Positions 1,885 through 35,839 of a DNA stretch of 64,000 nt are shown here, piece by piece. Numbering within the stretch: the first letter of the stretch is position 1; each line of letters starts with the position of its first letter. Source of the DNA: Phycisphaeraceae bacterium D3-23 (GTDB lineage Bacteria > Planctomycetota > Phycisphaerae > Phycisphaerales > Phycisphaeraceae); NCBI GenBank assembly GCA_039555135.1, contig CP114179.1:2604001-2668000 (forward strand), read 5' to 3'. Below the pieces are notes generated by a model that made no database searches, was not told where the DNA came from, and saw only the letters and a list, made by a program, of their open reading frames with translations. The position numbers and the translations under genes are program-made.

Positions 1885-4800
1885 CTAACTCAACAACCGC
1901 TCCAAATCATCCCGCGTCAGGTTCGCGATGATGTTTTCTTCGCCGCCGACGATGGCCTCGGCCAGGTCGCGCTTGCGGCCCTGGAGCTCGAGGATCCGCT
2001 GCTCGACCGTGTCCTCACAGATCATGCGGTACGCGAACACCGGCTTGGTCTGGCCGATGCGGTGGGTGCGGTCGATGGCCTGGGCCTCGACGGCCGGGTT
2101 CCACCACGGGTCCATGATGAAGACGTACTCGGCCGCGGTCAGGTTGAGCCCGACGCCGCCGGCCTTGAGCGAGATCAAGAACACCGGCAGGTCCGGGTCG
2201 GTCTGGAAACGCTTGACGACGTCCGCGCGGTTGCGGGTCTGGCCGTCGAGGTAGGCGTACTTGATCCCGCGCTCGTCGAGGCGTTTGCGGATCAGCCCAA
2301 GCATCGAGGTGAACTGGCTGAAGACGAGCGCCTTGGAGCCCTCGTCGATGATCTCGTCGAGTCGCTGTTCGAGCTCGTCAAGCTTCGCGCTCGGGGCGTT
2401 GAGCGTGTCGAACTGCATCGCGGCGGCGGTCTTGTCGATCAGCGCCGGGTGGCACGCGGCCTGGCGCAGGCGCAGGAGCGCTTCGAGCACCATGAACGCC
2501 GCCCGGCCAAGCCCCTTGCCCGAGCCCCCGGCCGCGCCGTTGCGCGCCGACTTGCCGCGGTTGTCGGGCGCATCGAGCTGACGCAGCAGGTTGCCACGGA
2601 AGTAGGTACGAAGCTCGTCGTAGACCTTGCGCTGGGCGGGCTCCATCTCGCAGATGATCGTCTGCTCGGTCTTCGCGGGCAGGTCGGTGAGCACCTGCTG
2701 CTTGGTCCGTCGGAGGATGAACGGGCGGATCGCCCCGGCGACCTGGATCAGCGCGTCGCGGCTGGGCTGGCCGTCGTCCTCCTTCTTGTCGCTGCTTGCT
2801 TCGGCGCGCTGGGCGGCGGCGTTGGCGGCCTGCTCGGCCTGGAGCCCCTCGGGCGGCAGCGCGCCGGGCATCGCCGTCAACGCGCCGCTCTTCGCGGCCG
2901 GGCCCGCCTGGCCGCGTCGGCCCGCGCTGCCGGTCGCGCCGCGGATCAGCTCGGCGAACTTCGCGCTCGAGCCGAGCATCCCCGGGTTCAGGTACTCGAA
3001 GATCGACCAGAGGTCGCCCAGGTGGTTCTCGATCGGCGTACCGGTGAGCGCGAGCTTGTGCCGGGCGTTGAGCAGCCGCGCGGCCTTGGCGGACTGGCTC
3101 TGCGGGTTCTTGATCGCCTGGGCCTCGTCGAGCACGGCGTAGTCAAACTCGATCGTGCTCAGGAAGTCGATGTCGCGTCGCATCAGCCCGAAGCTCGTCA
3201 CGATCAGGTCGTAGTCGCCGAAGCTTTCGCGGTGCTGCTCGCGGTCCGGGCCGGTGTACGCCAGGACCTTGAGCTCGGGCGTGAACTTGCTGGCCTCGTC
3301 GATCCAGTTAAAGATCACGCTGCGCGGGACGATGATGATGTTCGGGGAGGGAGCAGGGGCCGGGGGGCCAAGGGGCCGAGTGTCGGAGTCCGTAGGGCTT
3401 TGGGCTTCATCACTTGGCCCCTCGGCCCCCTGGCCCCTTGACCACTCGTCGGTGTACTCGGGCAGCCCGAGCTTGCGGCCCTGCAGCATCGCGAGGACCT
3501 GGATCGTCTTACCCAGGCCCATATCGTCGGCGAGGATGCCGCCCATCCCGAAGCGGCGCAAGAACCCGAGCCAGCCCAGCCCGCGTTTCTGGTACGAGCG
3601 CAGCTTGCCATCGAAGTGGTTTGACGGGTCGATGGGCTTGACGCCGTCGAACGCGCGGATCTGTTCGCGGACGCGCTGGAAGGTCTCGTCGATGCTGACC
3701 AGCTCGCGCTCGCCCAGCAGCGCGTCGAGCATCGCGGCCTGGGAGGAGCGGAAGCGGAGGTGGTCGCCGTTGAGCTGGCCCATCGCGGTGAGGAGGCCGT
3801 GCTCTTCGAGCCACTGCTGGGGGAGCAGGCCCTGGCTTCCGTCGCCGAGCGTGACCATGTGTCGGCCCGCGCGTGCGGCGGCGAGGATGTCGGGCAGGGC
3901 GACTTCCTGCTCGCTGCCGTCTTCGCCGGTGAATTTGACGTTGCCGCGCAGCTCGAACCAGTCGATGCCGGACGTGATCGACAGCGAGGGCGGCCCGGCG
4001 GTGCGGACGGCCTGCTGGTCGGCGGCGATCATCCAGCCGGCGTTGAGCAGGTCCGCGACGGCGGGGGGCATCAGCCGAACGGGCAGCAGCATCGTGTCGC
4101 CCGACGGGGTCTCGATATGGCGCATGCCCAGCGAGGCGCAGCGCTGGATGGCTTGTCGCTCGGCCCGTCGGTTGCGACGGATCAAGCGCGTGCCATCTTC
4201 GGGCAGCGCATCGGGGTCGGCCTCTTCAACAGTCACCGAGTCGGCGACTGGATCAGCCGTCGCCATCGCGGTTTCGGAAGGGTCGGACGCGCCGGCTTCG
4301 GTGACAGCGCTCTTGCTTTCGTCGCCAGGGTCGCTGCCTTCGGAGACAGGCGCATCACCCGCGGCGCCCGCGGCCCCGGCCTGATCGGCGTTTACGGTGT
4401 CGGTGAGGACGGGCACGAACCGGCCCGGCTGCACGGGGCTGACGCGCTGCTCGCCGTAGGCAAACCACAGCCGGGCGACGAGGTGGTTCTTTGCGGTCGT
4501 CGGTGCCAGCTCGAGCGCGGGCGTCGAGTTCGGGCTGTGCAGGTCCAGGTGCGGCACGGGGTCCACGGTCTGCTCGGCCCGGCCAAGCCCCTCGGGCAGG
4601 TCGATCTCCGGCAGGTGCGGCAGCAGGTACAGCCGATCGAGGAACCGCTCGACATCCGCCTCGGGCACGCGCATCACGGGGCGTTCGACTTCGTCGTCGG
4701 TGAAGCGTTCGTCGCGGAACTGCGTGACCCAGCGCCAGGCCTCACGGTCGTCGAAGGCGGAGACCTTGCCGCTGTGGATCAGCAGCCCGTCGGGTCCGCC

Positions 4801-5892
4801 GAGCACGAGCCGGGGCTCCTCGATACCGATGCGTCGGCCGGCGCGGCGGGCTTGGATATCGATCAGCAGGTCGCGCGGCGTGGGGTCGTTATCTTCCTCG
4901 TCGTCGTCGTCGATACGCGCCGCCGACAGGTCCGCTGCGGCCTCGTCGTCGGCATCGTCCGCGGCGATGGGGGTGTCGGCGGGGAGTTCGCCGTCGCTAT
5001 TCTTTTCGTCGTACACGCCGTGCAGGTGCAGGGTCCACGCGGCCTCGCCCGCTTCGCCGTCGTCCCACGTGAGGCCGACGAGTTCGCCGCCGCTGTTGCC
5101 CAGCGGGTCGCCGTCATCGAGGACGCAGCGGCCGGTCGCGATCATCTGTTTGAGCAGCCGGCGTTGCGCGTGGGGGCGCGACGCGGTACATCGCGTGCGA
5201 CCGCGGCAGCAGGTACGCATCGGCCGACTCTTGTTCGGTGACCCACGTCGCGCCGAGCATCAGCGCGCAGATCTCGCGGTCGACCGGGTCGGTCAGGGCC
5301 TTGACGGTCTCGGTCGAGATCTTGAACGGCTTGGGCTTGCCCCAGCCCGACGCGGTCGCGACGCGTTGGCGCAGCTCGATCACCAGCCCGTTGTGGCGTG
5401 CGCTGGCGCGCGGCAGGAGGACGTAGCACACCTGGCGCTGCACGGGGAAGACGCCCATCGCCTCTTCCTGCGCATCCGCAGCCGAGGGGCGCAAGAGAGA
5501 CAGCCGGCCCATCCACATCGGCTCGGCCGAGCGCGTCGGGCGGCGCGCGCCTTCGCGTTTGCGCGCGCCTTGGGCGGCTGGGGCTTGAGCTTCACGACCT
5601 CCGAGACCGACGCCCCCGGGCCTGCGGGCTCGTGCACGAGGTGCAACAGCGTCGCCCACAGGTGCTCGCAGAACTCGCCCTTCGCGGCCTGCGCCGAGTC
5701 GCACTCGATGATGGCTTGTCGGCCGTCACTCTTGAGCGAGACGGTGACGAGCTCGTCGCCCTGCACCTGGGCGCGCAGCAGTTCGCCGTCCTCGGGCTCG
5801 AGGCGTTGGACCTTGCGCTCGAGCTGGAGGGCCCGGCCCCGCATGCGTGCTTTGCTATGAAAGTATGGCGACCATGCCGTCAGCTGCGTCAT
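1885..5892 (-). CDS. SNF2-family DEAD/DEAH-like helicase with N-terminal SWIM-like finger; reading frame interrupted twice
   Basis: The helicase core is intact in one frame (5220 down to 1885): DDMGLGKT (Walker A, near 3505-3531), DEAQ, LTGTPIENHLGDLW, FILRRTK, VFSQFTSML, GGVGLNLT and HRIGQTKPV motifs place it with bacterial SNF2/Rad54-like ATPases. The N-terminus starts at ATG 5892 (GGGGAG 5 nt upstream) with a SWIM-like FCEHLWATLLHL, then the frame shifts in an Ala/Arg-rich stretch near 5540-5560. It continues in another frame until a C5 run at 5172-5176 on this strand restores the first. The two shifts compensate, so about 130 residues are out of frame, and unshifted translation stops at 5380. 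Two low-complexity insertions lie inside the core; one is a dispersed repeat (3343-3441). This is either two sequencing errors or a decaying gene. Confidence 0.88.
3343..3441. repeat. G/C-tract inverted repeat, family D copy 1, inside the SNF2 gene
   Basis: Purine-rich GGGGCC/CCAAGGGGCCGAG arm pairs with CTTGGCCCCTCGGCCCCC. A second member at 25472 lies between xth and ruvA and shares the 19-mer CACTTGGCCCCTCGGCCCC. Here it is in frame and encodes a Gly/Pro/Asp-rich linker between helicase motifs I and Ia. Confidence 0.75.
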
Positions 5893-6017
5893 CGAACTCC
5901 CCAATGGGCGGTACAAAAATCCCGAATCGGTAACAGTAGCCGCATCAACGTTCCTTGGCAATCCCCGGGCCGAGGATCGGCTAAAGTTGTCGGGCGAACC
6001 GCGTCTGAGGCCCGCCC

Positions 6018-6959
6018 GTGACCAGTGAAACCCTGAACAACATGACCCCGGCGACCTGGGTCCTGCTCGCGCTGACCGCCGGGATGCTCGGCCTGCTCTG
6101 GGCCGGGGGGGCGATGACGCCCAAGGCCCTGCAGCGCGGGCCCAAGCGCGACGTCGGGATGGGCGTCGGCGACGTCCTCGCGGCGTTCGGGCTCTACGCG
6201 CTGGGCATGGTCCTCGCCGGGCTGGTCGGCGGGGTGTGGATGCAGGCGGTCGGGGCCCAGACGTTCGAGGAGATGTCCCTGCTCGACATCGCGCGATTCT
6301 CATTGGTCAGCTCGATCGTCATGTTCGGCCCGGGGATCGCCTACCTCGTCTGGCGTTTGCAACGCGGCGGCAACCTCCGCCTGGGCGGGGTCGTGCCGCG
6401 CCATCCGATCCGAGACATAGGCGTCGCGGCGATTGCGCTGCCCGTCGCCTTCCTCGGCGCGATCGCGCTCGGGCTCATCACCCTCATCGTCTTCGAGCTC
6501 TTCGGCTACACCACGCCGGACCACGGCCACGTCGTCCTCGAGATGCTCGCCAACAACGACTCGCCCACCGTCCTGCTGTTCATGTCGATCTCTGCGGTCG
6601 TCCTCGCGCCGCTCACCGAAGAGTTCTTCTTCCGCGGGTTCGTGCAGACGGCCGTGCAATCGACACTCGGACACCAACGCCGGTGGACGAGCATCTTCAT
6701 CACCGCGAGCTTCTTCGGCGTGATCCACCTGGGCTCGGTCCCGCCGCCGATGGTTGCGCCGCTGATCCTGCTGGGCGTCATCTTCGGGTGGGTTTATGAG
6801 CGCACGGGCTCGATCTGGTGCGCCGTGCTGGTCCACGCGGGGTACAACGGGATCAACGTGCTGCTGAACCAGGCGCAGCACGCGGGGGGCGAAACGGAAA
6901 ACGCGCAAGTCATCGGGTGCCACATCGCGCAGCTATGTGCCGGGCTACCCGTCGCGTAG
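6018..6959 (+). CDS. CPBP-family intramembrane glutamic endopeptidase
   Basis: 313 residues from a GTG start, with about eight hydrophobic segments. The ABI/CPBP catalytic signature is visible: LTEEFFFRGF (E201, E202, R206), then FFGVIHL (H237) and LVHAGYNGIN (H273). The family (Rce1-like) cleaves membrane-associated substrates; the substrate here is unknown. The last 14 residues (300-313) and the stop codon are encoded by a dispersed palindromic repeat (6915-6992), so the native C-terminus was probably different. It diverges from the SNF2 gene across about 125 nt and faces the HDOD gene across a shared terminator. Confidence 0.9.
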   Translation: MTSETLNNMTPATWVLLALTAGMLGLLWAGGAMTPKALQRGPKRDVGMGVGDVLAAFGLYALGMVLAGLVGGVWMQAVGAQTFEEMSLLDIARFSLVSSIVMFGPGIAYLVWRLQRGGNLRLGGVVPRHPIRDIGVAAIALPVAFLGAIALGLITLIVFELFGYTTPDHGHVVLEMLANNDSPTVLLFMSISAVVLAPLTEEFFFRGFVQTAVQSTLGHQRRWTSIFITASFFGVIHLGSVPPPMVAPLILLGVIFGWVYERTGSIWCAVLVHAGYNGINVLLNQAQHAGGETENAQVIGCHIAQLCAGLPVA

Positions 6960-6992
6960 TCTGACGGCACACAGCTGCGCTGTGTGGCACCC
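6915..6992. repeat. GGGTGCCACA inverted repeat, family A copy 1
   Basis: Outer arms GGGTGCCACA / TGTGTGGCACCC with inner GCAGCT / AGCTGC pairing. It is a shorter, diverged member of the family also at 13023, 26257, 29618, 30388 and 33562. It overlaps the 3' end of the CPBP protease gene. Confidence 0.75.
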
Positions 6993-7005
6993 GCTGGCGC
7001 AATGA

Positions 7006-7042
7006 AAAACCCACGGGTAAAATCCGTGGGTTTCGCTTTTTT
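7006..7042. terminator. Bidirectional intrinsic terminator
   Basis: AAACCCACGG / CCGTGGGTTT stem with a 7-nt loop, an A-run before it, and CGCTTTTTT after it. It sits between the convergent CPBP and HDOD genes and can serve both. Confidence 0.8.
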
Positions 7043-7058
7043 GTGTTGAGATCGCGTG

Positions 7059-7976
7059 TTAGGCCGGGGCCTGGAAGATGCCTTTGGCCTCGTCGATCGC
7101 GGCGGGGAGCTGCTTGCTGACCTCCTCGATCATCGCCGGGGTGAGCTTGAGTTCTTCGAGCAGCGCGGGGTCGATCGAGTCGTGCTCGGTGCCGAGCGTG
7201 AAGCCCATGTCGAGCTGCTTGGTGACCATGTCGGCGACGTAGACCAGCCCGGTCAGCGCGCGGTGGTTGCCTGCGAGCTCGTTGGGGCGGTGGTGGAAGC
7301 CGGTGACGTATTGGAAGTTGATCGGGAACTTCCAGAGCTTGCACAGCCCCTGGCCAAACTGCTCGTGGTTCGCCCCGATACAGCGGGTCTCGGCCTCACG
7401 CAGCGTGATGCTCGGGTCGCTCTGGGCCAGCTCGAGGGCCTGAATAAACTGCGCGCGCTTGGCCTGCACCTCGACCATAATCCCGAGGTCGTGGATGAGC
7501 CCGGCCAGGAACGCCTCGTCGGGCAGCCCGAGCGAGACCTTCTGGGCGAAGAGGCGCGTCGCGGTCGCCGAGGCGATCGCGTTGGTCCACAGCTCGCGTG
7601 CATCAAAGTTCTCGGCGATCTTGCCGCCACGGAACAGCTTGGCCAGCGACGCGGCGATGGCGATGTTCTTGACCGCGTTGAGGCCGAGCAGCACGATCGC
7701 GCGGTTGATCGAGCCGATCTGCCCCGGCAATCCGTAGAACGCGGAGTTCACGACCTTCAGGATACGTGCCCCCAGCGCGGGGTCGTTGCTGATGACCTTG
7801 TTGAGGTCCTGGGCGGTGGAGTCGGGGTCCTCGACCAGCTGGATGATCTTCATCGTCACCTCGGGGAGCGTGGCGATGTGGCTGATCTCTCGGATGGCGC
7901 TGTCGACGATCTGCTCGGGTGGGAGCGTCGGGGTCTCGGCGGTGTCGGTCGTCGGGGGCGTGGTCGGTTCGGACAT
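7059..7976 (-). CDS. HDOD domain protein
   Basis: 305 residues. After a Thr/Pro-rich leader of about 25 residues comes a full HDOD domain: ISHIATLPEVTMKIIQLVEDPDS near the start, then VISNDPALGARILKVVNSAFYG and LAGLIHDLGIMV. HDOD is a degenerate HD-phosphohydrolase-like domain used in signalling and stress regulation. The HD pair is retained (LIHDLG), but HDOD proteins usually lack the rest of the metal site. No GGDEF, EAL or receiver domain is fused. The start ATG 7976 has a GGAG about 9 nt upstream; the longer open frame to 8108 would be an Arg/Pro-rich extension running toward a REP and is rejected. Confidence 0.88.
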   Translation of the reverse strand: MSEPTTPPTTDTAETPTLPPEQIVDSAIREISHIATLPEVTMKIIQLVEDPDSTAQDLNKVISNDPALGARILKVVNSAFYGLPGQIGSINRAIVLLGLNAVKNIAIAASLAKLFRGGKIAENFDARELWTNAIASATATRLFAQKVSLGLPDEAFLAGLIHDLGIMVEVQAKRAQFIQALELAQSDPSITLREAETRCIGANHEQFGQGLCKLWKFPINFQYVTGFHHRPNELAGNHRALTGLVYVADMVTKQLDMGFTLGTEHDSIDPALLEELKLTPAMIEEVSKQLPAAIDEAKGIFQAPA

Positions 7977-8098
7977 TGTGCAGCTCCAGCGCGGTGGGAA
8001 GATCGCTACTGGAGCATCGACGCGGGGCGAGGCCGACTTGAGCGCTGGCGCGGGGCGGGCGGAGTTTTCCGGTTGTGCGGGGGTCCGGTAAGCGGTGG

Positions 8099-8128
8099 GA
8101 AGGCCCACGTTCAGTGAACGTGGGCTTC
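8099..8128. repeat. REP-like palindrome, family B copy 2
   Basis: Arms GCCCACGTTC / GAACGTGGGC with a one-base irregularity (AAGG instead of AAG) and the CGGGG tail typical of the family. It lies between the HDOD and polX genes. Confidence 0.8.
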
Positions 8129-8156
8129 GGGGGATGTGCGTTGATGTCGCGGGATG

Positions 8157-9947
8157 TTAGCCGCGCGTCGAGGCGATCCACTGCTTGAGCCCGGCGGCGG
8201 TCATGCAGTTGACGACGTCTTGCGCCGTGGCGCCGGCGCGCCTTGCGGTGAGGACGCCATAGGGAAGCTGATAGGTGTCGCCTTCGCCGTGGGCATCCGT
8301 ATTGATGGCGAGCTTGCAGCCGGCGGCGAGCGCGGCGCGGGCGTGGGTGTCGCGCAGGTCGAGCCGCCAGTGGTTGGCGTTGATCTCCATCGCGACCCCG
8401 CGATCGGCAGCGGCCTTGACGAGCGCATCGATGTCCGGGCTCAGCCCCTCGCGCTTGAGGACCAGCCGGCCCGTCGGGTGGCCCATGATCGTGACGTACG
8501 GGTTCTGGATCGCCTTGAGCAGACGCGCGGTCGCCTTCCTGGGCTCTTGCGAGAGCGCGGCGTGTGGAGAAGCGACGACAACATCCAGCTCCGCGAGCAG
8601 CTCGTCGGGGTAGTCGAGCGAGCCGTCGGGCAGGATATCGACCTCGCTGCCCGCCAAGACGGTGATGGTGCCTTCGAGCTTCTTCGCGACCTTGCGCACC
8701 GCCTCGATGTGCTTGACGAGGCGGTCGCTATCGAGCCCGTTGGCCTGGTACTGGCTCTTGGAGTGGTCGGTGATGGCGACGGTGTGGTGGCCACGCTTGG
8801 CGAAGGCGCGAGCGTTTTCTTCAATCGACCAGACGCCGTCGCTGGCGGTGGTGTGGGTGTGCAGGTCGGCCTTGATGTCTTTCAGCTCAAGCAGCTTGGG
8901 CAACTCATCGTTGTCCGCAAGCGCGATCTCGCCGCGGTCCTCGCGCAGCTCCGGGGCGATCCACGCGAGGTCGAGCGCCTTGTAGATGTCTTCTTCGGTC
9001 TTCGTCGCGACATCGTCGCCCTCAGCTAACGCACGGGGGTGGCCACCCCCGTGCTTTACCTTGTCCGCATCTTTGACGCTCAGCGCGTACTCGTTGAGCG
9101 TGTAGCCCATCGACAGCGCGCGCTCGCGTAGCTTGACGTTGTGTTCTTTGCTGCCGGTGAAGTACATCAGCGCCGCGCCGTAGTGCTTGGGCTCGACGAC
9201 GCGGAGGTCGATCTGGATCGCGCCGGTGCCGTCGCTCGTGCGGACGGAGGATTTCGTGTCGCCGTGGCCCAGTACTTCGTCGACCATATCCATGCCGATG
9301 AACGCATCCATCAGACAGTGGTGGTACTTCTTTTCAGCACCCACAACGACGTCGATGTCTCCAATCGTTTCTTTCCCACGCCGCAAAGACCCGGCGTAGT
9401 CGATGAGCGTCACATCGCACTCGGATTTCAGCACCTCGATGACATGCAACGCCAGCGGCAGCGCCCGCCCCAGGTGCGTCCGCCCGCCCTGCTTCGCAAG
9501 AAAAGCGATGCCCTTGCTCAGGTTCTCCAGCTTCTTCTTGCCCATCCCCTTGAGCTCGGCCAGCGACCCGTCCGCGATCCCCGCCTCCAGGTCCGCGACC
9601 GACTCGACCCCCGCCTCACGCCAGAGCTGCGCCACACCCTTGGGGCCAAGCCCGGGGATGTCCAGCATGTCCAGCAGCCCGGCCGGGATGTTGTCGAGCA
9701 TCTGCTGGTGCTCGTCGATCTTCCCGCTCTCAACAAACTCCGCGATCTTCTCGGCGAGCCCCTTGCCCACCCCATCGATCGACGTCAGCTCGCCCGGCTC
9801 AACCATCGCGACGTCGCGCGTCAGCTCCTTCATCACCCGCGCCGCCTTCTGGTAGGCGTTGGTCTTGAAGCGGTTGCCATCGACGATCTGGTTGACATCC
9901 GCCATCTGCTGAAAGATCGCGGCAAGCGTGCTGTTGGTGCTGGGCAT
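8157..9947 (-). CDS. polX: DNA polymerase/3'-5' exonuclease PolX
   Basis: 596 residues with the classic bacterial PolX order: an N-terminal 8-kDa-type helix-hairpin-helix region (IDGVGKGLAEKI, IPGLGPKGVAQLW), a family X nucleotidyltransferase palm (AGSLRRGKETIGDIDVVV, residues 185-202, with the metal-binding D-x-D), and a PHP phosphoesterase domain from about residue 362 (DLHTHTTASDG, ITDHS, GHPTGR, INTDAHG). It is a repair polymerase with a manganese-dependent exonuclease/phosphatase domain. Residues about 296-310 (KVKHGGGHPRALAEG), in the linker between palm and PHP, are encoded by a perfect palindrome (9027-9058) unlike the family. It is divergent from gcvP. Confidence 0.93.
   Translation of the reverse strand: MPSTNSTLAAIFQQMADVNQIVDGNRFKTNAYQKAARVMKELTRDVAMVEPGELTSIDGVGKGLAEKIAEFVESGKIDEHQQMLDNIPAGLLDMLDIPGLGPKGVAQLWREAGVESVADLEAGIADGSLAELKGMGKKKLENLSKGIAFLAKQGGRTHLGRALPLALHVIEVLKSECDVTLIDYAGSLRRGKETIGDIDVVVGAEKKYHHCLMDAFIGMDMVDEVLGHGDTKSSVRTSDGTGAIQIDLRVVEPKHYGAALMYFTGSKEHNVKLRERALSMGYTLNEYALSVKDADKVKHGGGHPRALAEGDDVATKTEEDIYKALDLAWIAPELREDRGEIALADNDELPKLLELKDIKADLHTHTTASDGVWSIEENARAFAKRGHHTVAITDHSKSQYQANGLDSDRLVKHIEAVRKVAKKLEGTITVLAGSEVDILPDGSLDYPDELLAELDVVVASPHAALSQEPRKATARLLKAIQNPYVTIMGHPTGRLVLKREGLSPDIDALVKAAADRGVAMEINANHWRLDLRDTHARAALAAGCKLAINTDAHGEGDTYQLPYGVLTARRAGATAQDVVNCMTAAGLKQWIASTRG
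9027..9058. repeat. Perfect 24-bp palindrome inside polX
   Basis: GCACGGGGGTGG followed by its exact complement (9031-9054), flanked by TAA/TTA that extends the symmetry. It is in frame, adds about ten residues to PolX, and contains no stop in the coding frame. Confidence 0.8.
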
Positions 9948-29612: not shown

Positions 29613-29617
29613 GGTTT

Positions 29618-29729
29618 GGGTGCCACACAACTGGCCTGCTCGGAGGGCTGCTGTGTGCAGCGCCACATTGAACTCCTTTGTCAGTACGCACACAGCAGGC
29701 CTGCGGACAGGCCAGCGGTGTGGCACCCA
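29618..29729. repeat. GGGTGCCACA inverted repeat, family A copy 4
   Basis: 112-bp member: GGGTGCCACACAACTGGCC...GGGCTGCTGTGTG and CACACAGCAGGCCTGCGGAC...GCCAGCGGTGTGGCACCC. It abuts a family C arm at its right edge, so two families are nested here. Confidence 0.85.
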
Positions 29730-30376: not shown

Positions 30377-30387
30377 GCACGCCCTCC

Positions 30388-30430
30388 GGGTGCCACACAA
30401 CGGCCCTGTCCGCAGGGCTGCGGTGTGCGA
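30388..30430. repeat. GGGTGCCACA solo arm, family A copy 5
   Basis: GGGTGCCACACAACGGCC + CTGTCCGCAGGGCTGCGG + TGTGCG. It corresponds to one arm of the full element (as in 29618) with no matching second arm. Confidence 0.7.
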
Positions 30431-30465
30431 ATCACAACAACAACACCGACTCAAAATACCCCATG

Positions 30466-32661: not shown

Positions 32662-32765
32662 CGGGGGTTGGGAGTTGGGGTGTGTATCAAAACAACGCGC
32701 AGCCGCGCGACACTATTCCGCCTGCCCCCTCAACCCCAATCCCCAACTCCCAATTCCCAACCCCT
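32662..32765. repeat. GTTGGGAGTTGGGG inverted repeat
   Basis: GGGGGTTGGGAGTTGGGG left arm pairs with CCCCAACTCCC and AATTCCCAACCCC; the centre contains AACGCGCAGCCGCGCGACAC. It lies between the trxB start and the stop of the prepilin-like gene, whose TAG it touches. Confidence 0.7.
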
Positions 32766-33570
32766 ACCACGCCGTCCACGTCGCCAACCCGTATCGCGTG
32801 CCCGGGCCGTCGGAGGTGTCCACGTTGACCACGGGCGCGTCGCCGATCGTCAACCATATCGTCTCGCCGTCGGGCGGCGCGAGCGGGGCCGCGTGGCCAT
32901 CGAGGTATGCGAGGTTTGCCCGGTCCGCATGGCGGAAGTGTCCCGCGCCCGTCACGCGCCCGGGCCGACGGTACGACACGCTGTGCGGCTCGTAGAACTG
33001 CGCGGCGTTGAAGTCTTGGTGTACCGCGTCCGCAAACGCGAACACACCGCTGGGGGCTTCCACCGCCTCCAGCCGCACGCCTTCACGACCCAGCGGGAAG
33101 GGCCAGGCCAGCCCGCCGTTGTACCCATAGTGCGCCGAGCCTTCCGCGAACTTGGGCACAAACCCCGCGTCGCCGCGCGGGAACGCCGGGCACGCCAGCG
33201 CCCCCGCGATGTCGTCGCCCAGGTAGTCCGCCAACGGCCCGCGCGCCTTGTCGAGCGGCCGATGCTCGCCCGTGCCCGGCCCACCCGTCTCATGGCCAAA
33301 CCACCACTGCACGCCGCCGGCCTCCTGCACGCCGAACGGCATCAGCGGACCGCCGTGCTCCGTCGCGTAGTTCAAGAGCGCCGCAGCGGTCTGGCGCTCG
33401 TTGCTCAGACACACCGACGCCCGCGCCGAGCGGCGCGATGCGCTCAGCGCCGGCAGCAGCACCGCGATCAGCAGCGCCACGATCGACACGACCACCAACA
33501 GCTCGATGAGCGTGAACGCATGAACCGGATGTGACGTGCCGCGTGTGATCGCGTGCTCCTTGGGTGCCAC
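32764..33570 (-). CDS. Prepilin-type N-terminal cleavage/methylation protein with H-X9-DG tail
   Basis: About 268 residues. HAFTLIELLVVVSIVALLIAVLLPALSASRRSARA is a textbook type IV prepilin/pseudopilin signal with the Glu at +5. The C-terminal GHFRHADRANLAYLDGHA is the H-X9-DG motif typical of the very numerous planctomycete pseudopilin-like family. The start is unusual: the first canonical codon is GTG 33570, which lies in a family A repeat. A perfect AAGGAG instead sits 6 nt before an ATC at 33549, and no ATG/GTG/TTG follows before FTLIE. It is exported and cleaved by prepilin peptidase; function unknown. Confidence 0.82.
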   Translation of the reverse strand: MAPKEHAITRGTSHPVHAFTLIELLVVVSIVALLIAVLLPALSASRRSARASVCLSNERQTAAALLNYATEHGGPLMPFGVQEAGGVQWWFGHETGGPGTGEHRPLDKARGPLADYLGDDIAGALACPAFPRGDAGFVPKFAEGSAHYGYNGGLAWPFPLGREGVRLEAVEAPSGVFAFADAVHQDFNAAQFYEPHSVSYRRPGRVTGAGHFRHADRANLAYLDGHAAPLAPPDGETIWLTIGDAPVVNVDTSDGPGTRYGLATWTAW

Positions 33571-33655
33571 AACACTGCCCGGTCCGCCGGGCTGCTGTGT
33601 GCGGCTTCGCAAAATCGGTCGATGAATCTCACAACGCAGGACTGCGGACAGGCCG
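33562..33655. repeat. GGGTGCCACA repeat, family A copy 6 (degenerate)
   Basis: Left arm GGGTGCCACAACACTGCCC...GGGCTGCTGTGTGCGG is good; the right arm CACAACGCAGGACTGCGGAC + AGGCCGGGTCC has decayed. It abuts the prepilin-like gene start. Confidence 0.65.
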
Positions 33656-33778: not shown

Positions 33779-34387
33779 CTACCCGCGCGTTCGCCGCCGC
33801 CGCCCCACCCACCACACGCCGCCGACCAGCAGCGCCGCCGTCCCGGGCTCGGGCACCGCCAGCGGCGCTGCCGCGCTGCCGTACCGGAACCCCACCGCCG
33901 AGCCGTCCGCCACCGCGACATCCGACGCCCCGATATCGGGCACCGTCCAGCCGGTGGGCGTGTTCGCGGTCGTCGTGCCCGACCAGAAGTGCCAGTAGTC
34001 CTCGCCGCCGGCGTAGCCCAGGTCGCTGCTTGTGCCGTAGCCGAAGCCGTCGAAGAAGCTGCCAAACGCGAACGTCTTGAAGACGACGTCGAGCGCTGCG
34101 AAATCGCCGAAGTCGCTGGGCGGTACAAACGACGCGTCGCTGCCGTCGAGCGCCCGCCCGCCGGTGGCGTCGGCGACGAAGAGCACGAGGTCTTCGCCGC
34201 TCCACTGCGCCGCCGCCGCGTCGAACGTCACGCCGAAGCTGACGTGCGCATCATCGCTAAAGTGCACCACCAGCTCGGCGTAGTCGCCGCCACTGCCCGT
34301 CGATAGATCGACATCCGCCGCACCGGCAGTCATCGACAGACCCACCGCGACAGCCGCCACGCCACAACGCAATCCAATACACAACAT
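33779..34387 (-). CDS. PEP-CTERM protein controlled by a cobalamin riboswitch
   Basis: 202 residues, ATG with GGAG 9 nt upstream. Signal peptide IGLRCGVAAVAVGLSMTAGAA, a beta-rich middle, and a C-terminal VPEPGTAALLVGGVWWVGRRRRTRG sorting tag (VPEPG 178-182, TM, basic end) recognised by exosortase. The segment YWHFWSGTTT...GWTVPDIGASDVAVADGSAVGFRYG (131-170) resembles, as I recall it, the YW-x-Y-W/DG-x-x-x-x-W-x-Y module of exported proteins encoded with cobalamin transport genes (DUF4430/intrinsic-factor-C-terminal-like). A full cobalamin riboswitch lies 104 nt upstream, so a role in B12 capture at the cell surface is a reasonable inference. No transporter is adjacent. Confidence 0.8.
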   Translation of the reverse strand: MLCIGLRCGVAAVAVGLSMTAGAADVDLSTGSGGDYAELVVHFSDDAHVSFGVTFDAAAAQWSGEDLVLFVADATGGRALDGSDASFVPPSDFGDFAALDVVFKTFAFGSFFDGFGYGTSSDLGYAGGEDYWHFWSGTTTANTPTGWTVPDIGASDVAVADGSAVGFRYGSAAAPLAVPEPGTAALLVGGVWWVGRRRRTRG

Positions 34388-34490
34388 GACAAAACACTCC
34401 CGGCCCCAAACGCGGGGGCCATACGGATAACGCCCGGCCTGCTCGGCCCGACGCAAACACCCCACGCCCGGAACATCCGGGACACAGGCA

Positions 34491-34744
34491 GGTCTTCCGG
34501 CTTCGGCCCATCGCGTCCGACCCGCCTTCCCGCCTCGCCCGTTGCAGGCGAGGCAGTGGCATCAAGTCGTACACGCCCCCGGAACGCTGTGTTCTCGAAA
34601 GAACAACTTCCGGGGGGGGCCGTCACGGCGGCGCGACCGCGGGGGAGTCTCCAACCGTGCCAGCCAAACAAACGGCCACGGCGGATCACCCCACTTCCCT
34701 TTTCACCCGCGGCGTTGATTGGCAAGCAACGCCGAAGGCACCTG
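34491..34744 (-). promoter_or_regulatory. Cobalamin (adenosylcobalamin-type) riboswitch
   Basis: On the minus strand the class consensus appears in order: AGGTGCC near 34744, then GGTGAAAAGGGAAGTGGGGT and GATCCGCC, a long variable arm with its own hairpin (CCGGAAGTTG...CGTTCCGG), then GCCACTGCC, GGCGGGAAGGCGGG, and the 3' signature GAAGCCGGAAGACCTGCCTG ending near 34491. About 254 nt, within the class size range given the insert. It reads into the PEP-CTERM gene at 34387; a CCCGG/CCGGG hairpin lies between. When B12 binds, expression should fall. Confidence 0.9.
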
Positions 34745-34825
34745 GGGGTGTGAGCGCGCAGCGTACCGCCGCCCGGCTTCCGCGTCAAGAATCAATCCGT
34801 TTATCCGGATGAATGGATGAGGCGC

Positions 34826-35839
34826 CTAGCCCGGGTTGGCCGCCTCGTACGCCGCGGCCTCCTGCTCGAGCTGCTCGATCTCCCGGCGCAAGTCCTCAAG
34901 GGCTTGTGCCGTGCCGGCATCCGACGGGCCGGGGGACAGCGGCCCGCCGTCCTGCGCCATGAGCCCGAGCGGTGTCGTCAGCAGCACCAGGTCGTCTCGG
35001 CCGCGCGGGGTCTGGCCCCACGGGCCGTTGGGGTCGGGCCGGACCACCCACGTTGCTTTCTCGCCCGGCGCGAGCCCCTCGGGGTCGGCGTACGACACCT
35101 CGGCATCGACCCACGGCTCCTGGGCGTCCGGGCTCGTCACCGTGCCTTGAAAGTCCGCGCCGTACACCGGCTGGTCGAGCATGTTCGTCACACGAAGCGT
35201 CAGCACCGGCACGTCGCGCCCCTCCCACGCGCCCCACGCGACCGAGCGCTCGGTCACCAGCAGCATCCCGGGCGCCGGGCCGGCCTGTTCCATGCCGATG
35301 GCCTGCACCTCGAGCGCCGCGACCTGGCCCCGCAGGAGTTCGAGCCGGGCGACCGCCGCGTGGTACTCCACGTCGTTCATAAACTTCGTGCCCGCGTGCT
35401 GCAGCGCCGTCGTCGTCAGCATCGACACCCCCACCCACACCCCCACCGACAACACACACGCCACACCCCCCGCGATCGGTAGCCCGATGCCCCGGCCCTT
35501 GGTCGTCAGCGCCAGGATCCCGCCGATCGTCGCCAGCACAAAACCGATCACCGCGAACGGGACGCTGATGCACCCGATGAACGGGATCCAGCTCGCCAAC
35601 AGCGCAATCACACCCAGCACCAGCGACGCCACCCCCAGCCCCGTCGCCGCGCCGTTGCCCGTCGGCTGCGCCGGCTGGAGCGTCGCGGCGGCATACGGCG
35701 CCGGCTGCGCAGCGGGGGGCGCCGACGCGCCCGGCACCGTCATCGCAACCCCGCACTGCTTGCACTGCGTCGCCTTCCCGGCATAACGGTCCTCTACGCT
35801 GTACGGCTTCTGACACGACGGGCAAGTAAAGGCAATCAT
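34826..35839 (-). CDS. Zinc-ribbon membrane protein (DUF4190-like) with C-terminal extracytoplasmic domain
   Basis: 337 residues. The N-terminus MIAFTCPSCQKPYSVEDRYAGKATQCKQCGVAMTVP is a two-CxxC zinc ribbon of the MJ0042/FHA-associated kind. A Pro/Ala linker leads to ATGLGVASLVLGVIALLASWIPFIGCISVPFAVIGFVLATIGGILAL, two TM helices in the DUF4190 pattern, then a third (GVACVLSVGVWVGVSM). The last 190 residues form a beta-rich domain with VLTLRVTNMLDQPVYGADFQGTV, like a domain of translocated proteins, and a terminal coiled coil ALEDLRREIEQLEQEAAAYEA. Common layout in planctomycetes; function unknown. ATG 35839 is preferred over GTG 35842. Confidence 0.75.
   Translation of the reverse strand: MIAFTCPSCQKPYSVEDRYAGKATQCKQCGVAMTVPGASAPPAAQPAPYAAATLQPAQPTGNGAATGLGVASLVLGVIALLASWIPFIGCISVPFAVIGFVLATIGGILALTTKGRGIGLPIAGGVACVLSVGVWVGVSMLTTTALQHAGTKFMNDVEYHAAVARLELLRGQVAALEVQAIGMEQAGPAPGMLLVTERSVAWGAWEGRDVPVLTLRVTNMLDQPVYGADFQGTVTSPDAQEPWVDAEVSYADPEGLAPGEKATWVVRPDPNGPWGQTPRGRDDLVLLTTPLGLMAQDGGPLSPGPSDAGTAQALEDLRREIEQLEQEAAAYEAANPG

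Follow-up and report, generated by a model that had tools for sequence, protein, structure and literature searches.

The locus described here raises a simple question: why should a cobalamin riboswitch stand directly before the gene of a surface protein, in a 64,000-nucleotide stretch (the window) of the genome of Phycisphaeraceae bacterium D3-23? The original prediction had taken the protein for an exosortase-anchored B12 scavenger with no B12 transport or synthesis gene nearby, and our analysis supports that reading, in which cobalamin binding is the inferred part. As to the neighbourhood, four families agree with it, since the matches of PF02310, PF01032 and PF07715 all lie outside the window and PF02654 has none in the genome. 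We regard the locus as probably a riboswitch-controlled two-gene unit, whose exosortase-anchored surface protein, judging largely from its predicted structure, would catch B12 or other cobamides for a B12-dependent Phycisphaerae host.

Riboswitches of the class RF00174 are cobalamin sensors. All the core elements predicted on the minus strand are in the sequence, and the covariance model places the aptamer at 34470-34760 of that strand (46.4 bits, gathering threshold 31.5, E 1.8e-8, model positions 1-189 of 189); a poor score in such a search had been named as a reason to abandon the prediction, and the score obtained is over the cut-off. It is lower than that of most relatives because of long insertions. 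The match is the only one in Rfam at the gathering threshold within the window, and the only one to RF00174 across the whole genome of 4,619,879 bases (4.62 Mb). Since the upstream reading frame ends at 34826, the aptamer was assigned as leader to the gene that follows it. Between the two, at 34421-34401 of the same strand, a hairpin that resembles a terminator or could mask the start, followed by T-rich sequence (TGTTTT inside the ten bases after it), ends 13 nt before the ATG and is a candidate for the expression platform of the unit, weak by itself because the region holds four terminator-like sites against a mean of 1.8 in shuffled sequences. Free folding of 34382-34475 gave a pairing different from the hairpin, and the fold is not unusual (z -1.58).

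The first gene runs on the minus strand from ATG 34387, and not from the GTG of the longest open reading frame, to a stop at 33779. Its product is a PEP-CTERM protein of 202 amino acids with a predicted fold like that of the transcobalamin beta domain, as assigned from the open reading frame, TIGR02595, homologues and a model. The sorting tail (33782-33856), recognised by TIGR02595 and by motif scan, consists of VPEPG, a hydrophobic stretch and an Arg-rich end, and the sorting tag foreseen by the original prediction exceeds the TIGR02595 PEP_CTERM cut-off (22.2 bits versus 16), though not that of Pfam PF07589 (14.0 versus 20.7). An N-terminal signal peptide, judged by eye, makes export likely for this putative surface protein; PEP-CTERM proteins are in general envelope proteins. 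By motif scan this is the sole PEP-CTERM-like tail in the 64 kb, and it lies beside the sole pseudopilin-like frame.

That frame, missing from the original prediction, is the second gene (32764-33570, minus strand), with a GTG start at 33570 and its stop side at 32764, and is recognised as a pseudopilin by TIGR02532 (20.8 bits, cut-off 16.3) and PF07963 (25.7 bits, cut-off 21.2). An H-x9-DG stretch can be read in its translation; TIGR04294 is not one of the 15 families that were listed for this gene, and is over the cut-off in one relative (locus L046). The pseudopilin is probably co-transcribed with the first gene. Four copies of a dispersed 46-nt repeat with hairpin potential were also seen inside a 9.5-kb part of the window (29616-29661, 29681-29726, 30386-30431 and 33560-33605), with 61-80% identity to the first copy; they sit between apparent genes, one of them overlapping the start of the pseudopilin gene.

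Comparison with a sister species, the one other genome of the genus that was examined, gives a first impression of what is conserved. Riboswitch, pseudopilin and the next genes stand there in the same order, the flanking and following DNA being 81-84% identical to that of the window and the leader region 70%, and the pseudopilin, in the same place, is 75% identical in amino acids. The sister's first protein aligns to residues 94-202 only, at 33%, and was not found by the domain profile. Because the binder slot differs while the control element and the pseudopilin are kept, the slot seems to change fast.

How general is the association of riboswitch and domain? An initial search with residues 20-177, from which the sorting tail was left out because it would have collected unrelated PEP-CTERM proteins, matched 18 of 298 Phycisphaerae genomes, own genome included; RF00174 over the cut-off stood upstream at 11 of 17 homologue loci, and the six loci lacking it all belonged to one family (f4). 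Among GTDB contigs 28 loci were recovered, in records named as Phycisphaerae or other Planctomycetota, as Kiritimatiellae (five) or Deltaproteobacteria (one), or in unplaced MAGs (two), and 26 have a riboswitch upstream on the same strand; eight of the 28 are records already among the first loci, and the other 20 give 18 of 20. Both misses seem to be cut by contig ends: in L061 the domain match starts at contig base 3, and in L051 the contig edge falls at the start of the BtuH-fold gene, before which the riboswitch would be expected.

A wider profile search detected the domain in 93 of 397 Phycisphaerae genomes, and RF00174 in 364, most of which carry one or two matches. After merging of the split rows of two genomes (G093 and G215), the domain occupies 94 places, in a list whose weakest entries stand at E 8e-4 and some of whose matches are partial. 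Among the best 150 RF00174 places, a riboswitch (two of them sub-threshold) lies 146-1460 bases upstream of 33 of the 94. For the remaining 61, three at contig ends (G109, G214, G327) were left out before counting, and the upstream DNA of the other 58 held 33 matches over the cut-off, 14 sub-threshold ones, six weaker ones and none in five cases. Altogether, then, the 91 assessable places comprise 64 with RF00174 over the cut-off upstream, 16 with sub-threshold clan matches, six with weaker ones and five with none; the 16 mix scales, 14 being at E <= 0.01 and two, from one genome, at E 4.6e-4 and 6.3e-4. All 53 cobalamin-clan matches in the 58 upstream stretches are on the coding strand. Chance placement, despite one or two matches per genome, is ruled out by this orientation together with the 64 of 91 places, bearing in mind that the 397 genomes are related and do not represent independent events.

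The relatives of family f4 have mainly short AdoCbl-type (RF01482) leaders under the gathering score. None of L013-L018 has a riboswitch at the Rfam gathering threshold, and five of the six have a sub-threshold AdoCbl-type or RF00174 match upstream; the sixth, L017 in genome G102, has no match upstream even when sub-threshold ones are included. Six f4 loci (L077, L078, L080, L081, L083 and L084) seem to carry two cobalamin leaders, a canonical RF00174 before a BtuH-fold-like protein, followed by a pseudopilin where the stretch reaches that far, and a short AdoCbl-like leader before the transcobalamin-like gene; G102 is without the second. Further arrangements were observed outside this family. 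In four Kiritimatiellae MAGs (L043, L054, L055, L059) the riboswitch is followed by a BtuH-fold gene and a pseudopilin, with the transcobalamin-like gene last; a MAG named Deltaproteobacteria (L047, JAJDAN010000070.1) holds riboswitch and domain gene; and downstream of the riboswitch at L067 and L068 (G218 and G179) a second cobalamin riboswitch precedes a frame named by reading as NrdD-type (anaerobic-ribonucleotide-reductase-like).

These riboswitches upstream of homologues were one of two ties that the original prediction had looked for, the other being a link of homologues to cobalamin genes, and that too was found: CobS adjoins one domain locus (L049, confirmed), a CobO/BtuR-type adenosyltransferase follows another (L062), and in a third genome (G011) a FecCD permease lies about 2 kb from the domain on the same contig. 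On the strand opposite to the L049 locus, 3727-9426 (minus strand) contains frames that, by reading, look like genes for cobalamin assembly and of BtuC type.

What, then, does the protein resemble? The conserved domain (residues 26-175; 33863-34312, minus strand), delimited by alignment, model and fold matches, ends across relatives in a Trp-rich stretch, and Trp132, Trp135, Trp147 and Tyr169 are invariant in all 27 aligned sequences, although the window protein diverges from the other 26 (27-38% identity). No Pfam family was matched with confidence by any of the 27, and a PDB sequence search with the domain gave nothing credible. The AlphaFold model, built on the 27-row alignment, reached a pLDDT of 89.2 and a pTM of 0.86. 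Foldseek against the PDB placed in its three top rows 5no0, a transcobalamin beta domain, and 3u7z with two of its chains, at E 0.018-0.12 only and with none at E <= 0.001. VIA-align, which re-scores Foldseek's own matches only, gave the predicted model Z 10.7-11.7 for 14 entries of the transcobalamin family (transcobalamin, haptocorrin and intrinsic factor), with 100-107 aligned residues at 9-16% identity. Haptocorrin 4kki and bovine transcobalamin 2bb6 stand at 11.7, intrinsic factor 2pmv at 11.6, and 5np4, the isolated beta domain with cyanocobalamin, at 10.9 (rmsd 2.4, 100 aligned). Next comes 3u7z (Z 9.9, rmsd 2.5, 96 aligned), and the fold that follows this group is an unrelated ubiquitin-like one at Z 5.6. 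The single domain is thus predicted to share the fold of the transcobalamin, haptocorrin and intrinsic-factor beta domains, and most likely it would bind the corrin through the conserved Trp/Tyr cluster.

Several established families were considered as a home for the domain and rejected. The original prediction had compared it with a DUF4430-like module; the likeness is upheld by the predicted fold, whereas the filing under DUF4430 (PF14478, as we take it) is not, as none of the 27 members lists DUF4430 at E <= 5, a search in which very weak matches could be lost to the HMMER filters. SCO2322 (NF040672) gives the window protein 17.6 bits against a cut-off of 85. For DUF4465/BtuJ, PF14717 has no match in the protein nor in the whole of its genome. 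A filing of the first protein under BtuG or BtuH is opposed by the profile searches, with no Pfam propeller match.

The company kept by the domain in other genomes also points towards cobalamin. A second type of protein, with a BtuH/BtuG1 fold, occurs separately or fused in 22 of the 28 loci. VIA-align gives its model (pLDDT 88.7) the best fit to two C-terminal regions, that of BtuG1 (8blw; 26% identity, Z 13.8) and that of a B12-binding lipoprotein (7biz; 29% identity, Z 13.6) which we take to be BtuH2 of PMC8941943; carbohydrate-binding modules come below them at Z 9.5. A PDB sequence search with the partner did not list BtuH or BtuG1 at E <= 1; since the sequence profile did not reach them, the link consists of fold together with 26-29% structurally aligned identity. 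In the window itself the partner profile (A4) found nothing at E <= 1. The pseudopilin, by motif scan, is present in 17 of the 22 riboswitch loci whose downstream stretch measures 2.5 kb or more, and no pseudopilin frame occurs outside those downstream stretches in the 26 loci scanned.

We further looked at 20 genomes without the domain, chosen from the listed RF00174 places. Six have a DUF4465 protein in the riboswitch unit, its identity being checked individually for four of them, and the remaining units hold other surface proteins, among which two of four scanned candidate propellers matched propeller families. By reading, a pseudopilin is present in 14 of the 20 loci and a BtuF-type frame in three (L110, L112 and L114, with L112 confirmed by PF01497); one unit has a BtuB-like receptor (TIGR01779, 337.6 bits, under the cut-off). 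DUF4465 was detected in 63 of the 397 genomes, and coincides with the transcobalamin-like domain in one genome where 14.8 would be expected (Fisher p 2.3e-7, with phylogeny not taken into account). In genomes with a listed riboswitch, 12 of 17 DUF4465 places have it upstream and five do not. According to one report, six newly tested DUF4465 members retained B12 during purification, one of them from Mucisphaera calidilacus, which also belongs to the Phycisphaerae (PMC13398666).

The rest of the genome tells us what the host might need. MetH is over the cut-off, and CobS, found in one of 21 genomes searched, has no match here. The host therefore probably cannot make B12, as far as this one missing family tells, and a B12-dependent MetH in a genome where CobS is not found would most simply call for uptake. 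One strong FecCD permease is encoded; the best among its equivalog models is BtuC (160 of 461 bits, under the cut-off), and the binding protein beside it scores best with TIGR04281 (87.2 bits), BtuF giving only 39.7 of 234; the ABC system appears BtuC-like and may serve B12. The single TonB receptor looks like a heme receptor by its sequence scores (heme-type 231.8 bits, under the cut-off; BtuB 111 of 599.7). An exosortase is present (TIGR02602, 115.3 bits over 105.55), with two further matches under the cut-off.

A sequence of events can be pictured from these elements. At low intracellular cobalamin the riboswitch, as expected of its class, would leave the unit on; the first product would be exported, its PEP-CTERM tail processed by the genome's exosortase, and the protein displayed on the envelope. 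There the beta-domain-like fold would hold the corrin through the Trp/Tyr cluster, and the pseudopilin, more speculatively, might help to present or move the captured cobamide, which would then pass to the BtuC-like ABC system encoded elsewhere and on to MetH.

Other readings of the same unit have to be weighed against this one. A surface protein under B12 control might bind nothing of the kind and be an envelope protein or adhesin, produced when B12 is limiting and built on a common beta-grasp scaffold, as could fit a match of fold only, at 9-16% identity, the want of a credible sequence link in Pfam or PDB, and the general nature of PEP-CTERM proteins. We hold this to be unlikely, because the Z scores of the transcobalamin family stand about 5 units above those of other beta-grasp folds, the partner genes of relatives have the BtuH/BtuG1 fold, all 27 aligned sequences keep the aromatic cluster unchanged, and DUF4465, whose members bind B12 according to PMC13398666, is found in some of the alternative units. 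There is only a slight chance that the riboswitch chiefly serves the pseudopilin, with the PEP-CTERM protein as a passenger: of the two genes the pseudopilin is indeed the more conserved between the two species (75%, against 33% over a part of the other), and it recurs at 17 of 22 loci with the domain and, as judged by reading, at 14 of the 20 without it, yet other surface proteins including DUF4465 mostly occupy the first-gene place in those 20, and five of the 22 loci have the domain gene with no pseudopilin by motif scan.

The ligand might also be another tetrapyrrole or a metal (heme, cobalt, a siderophore), taken up in a manner that depends on B12 status. The close fold match 3u7z is titled a putative metal-binding protein and the genome's one TonB receptor is heme-like; against these stand a riboswitch class that senses cobalamins, the cobalamin carriers that make up the remaining close fold matches, and the BtuH fold of the relatives' partner, so we consider such a ligand very improbable. 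PEP-CTERM proteins can be matrix-associated, and a cobamide binder could thus act as a vesicle or matrix scavenger, for hoarding, denial or particular analogues and not for uptake by the same cell. Bacteroides DUF4465 proteins BtuJ1/2 work on vesicles, although those vesicles deliver cobamides to cells (PMC12751083). With MetH and no CobS match making uptake the simplest need, and with a BtuF-type gene in some domain-negative riboswitch units (L110, L112, L114), hoarding or denial is in our opinion improbable. A surface binder that collects cobamides for its own cell, under riboswitch control, remains our preferred reading.

Related arrangements in other members of the class suggest a form of bacterial B12 collection that has gone unrecognised, often operating without the usual outer-membrane receptor. 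Any TonB plug was detected in 167 of the 397 class genomes, so that at least 197 of the 364 riboswitch-bearing ones (364 less 167) have none detected, and for these the passage of cobalamin through the outer membrane needs explaining; among the 93 domain-bearing genomes a plug went undetected in 43, of which 25 are at least 95% complete. As a tentative and rather doubtful extension, one could think of a BtuB-independent cobamide route in Phycisphaerae, in which a riboswitch cassette supplies a surface binder, in many cases together with a protein of BtuH fold, and a dedicated pseudopilin stands in for the TonB receptor. The binder in such a route would bear an exosortase tag or a dockerin, and would be transcobalamin-beta-like, DUF4465 or of another kind; that the pseudopilin takes the receptor's place in capture or outer-membrane passage is speculative. 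What makes the conserved cassette worth pursuing is that it offers named candidates for bringing so large a molecule as cobalamin across the outer membrane and a likely function for an unnamed domain in 93 of 397 genomes, that it would join the fold of the vertebrate B12 carriers to bacterial B12 uptake, and that it would tie a pseudopilin to vitamin supply.

Known systems resemble this unit in part, each in a different part. Transcobalamin, haptocorrin and intrinsic factor (5np4, 2bb6, 4kki, 2pmv) share their beta-domain fold with the single domain predicted here. In that family an alpha6/alpha6 barrel precedes the beta domain, whereas the window protein, 202 amino acids with one folded domain of about 150, has no alpha-barrel; it is moreover bacterial, carries a PEP-CTERM tail, stands under riboswitch control, and is a putative binder at 9-16% identity. 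We take 3u7z (RUMGNA_00854) to be a DUF4430 protein, similar in fold to the window domain with no Pfam DUF4430 match in the 27 members. With SCO2322, presumably an actinobacterial, B12-linked family, the likeness is a weak similarity of the Trp-rich stretch (six of 27 members at E <= 1, best 0.019), and the window protein reaches E 0.0038 over its full length, yet only 17.6 bits of the 85 required. The title of entry 5np4 describes the isolated human transcobalamin beta domain solved with cyanocobalamin. In the tentative extension given above, the bacterial transcobalamin-beta-like protein may be a separate branch of the fold that serves B12 transport in animals. In open-licence PMC text DUF4430 and cobalamin come together in two papers, one of them about vertebrate B12 binders (PMC4350170), and a cobalamin riboswitch comes together with PEP-CTERM in one paper, about a denitrifying reactor. 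Among the open-licence PMC titles listed we found no description of this cassette, and in open-licence PMC text nothing on SCO2322 nor on a transcobalamin-like protein with a cobalamin riboswitch.

The proposed manner of working resembles that of the surface binders of Bacteroides. According to PMC12751083 and PMC8941943, BtuG, BtuH and BtuJ (DUF4465) are riboswitch-controlled surface binders in B12 loci, several kinds occurring in one organism. The BtuH/BtuG1 C-terminal fold returns as the partner in relatives of the window locus, and DUF4465 in the domain-negative units. The Bacteroides binders are lipoproteins that accompany BtuB, whereas the window protein is PEP-CTERM-tagged and comes with a pseudopilin, in a group where 43 of 93 domain-bearing genomes are without a detected TonB plug. 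The window domain itself, neither BtuG nor BtuH nor DUF4465, would by analogy work as the surface B12 binders of Bacteroides do.
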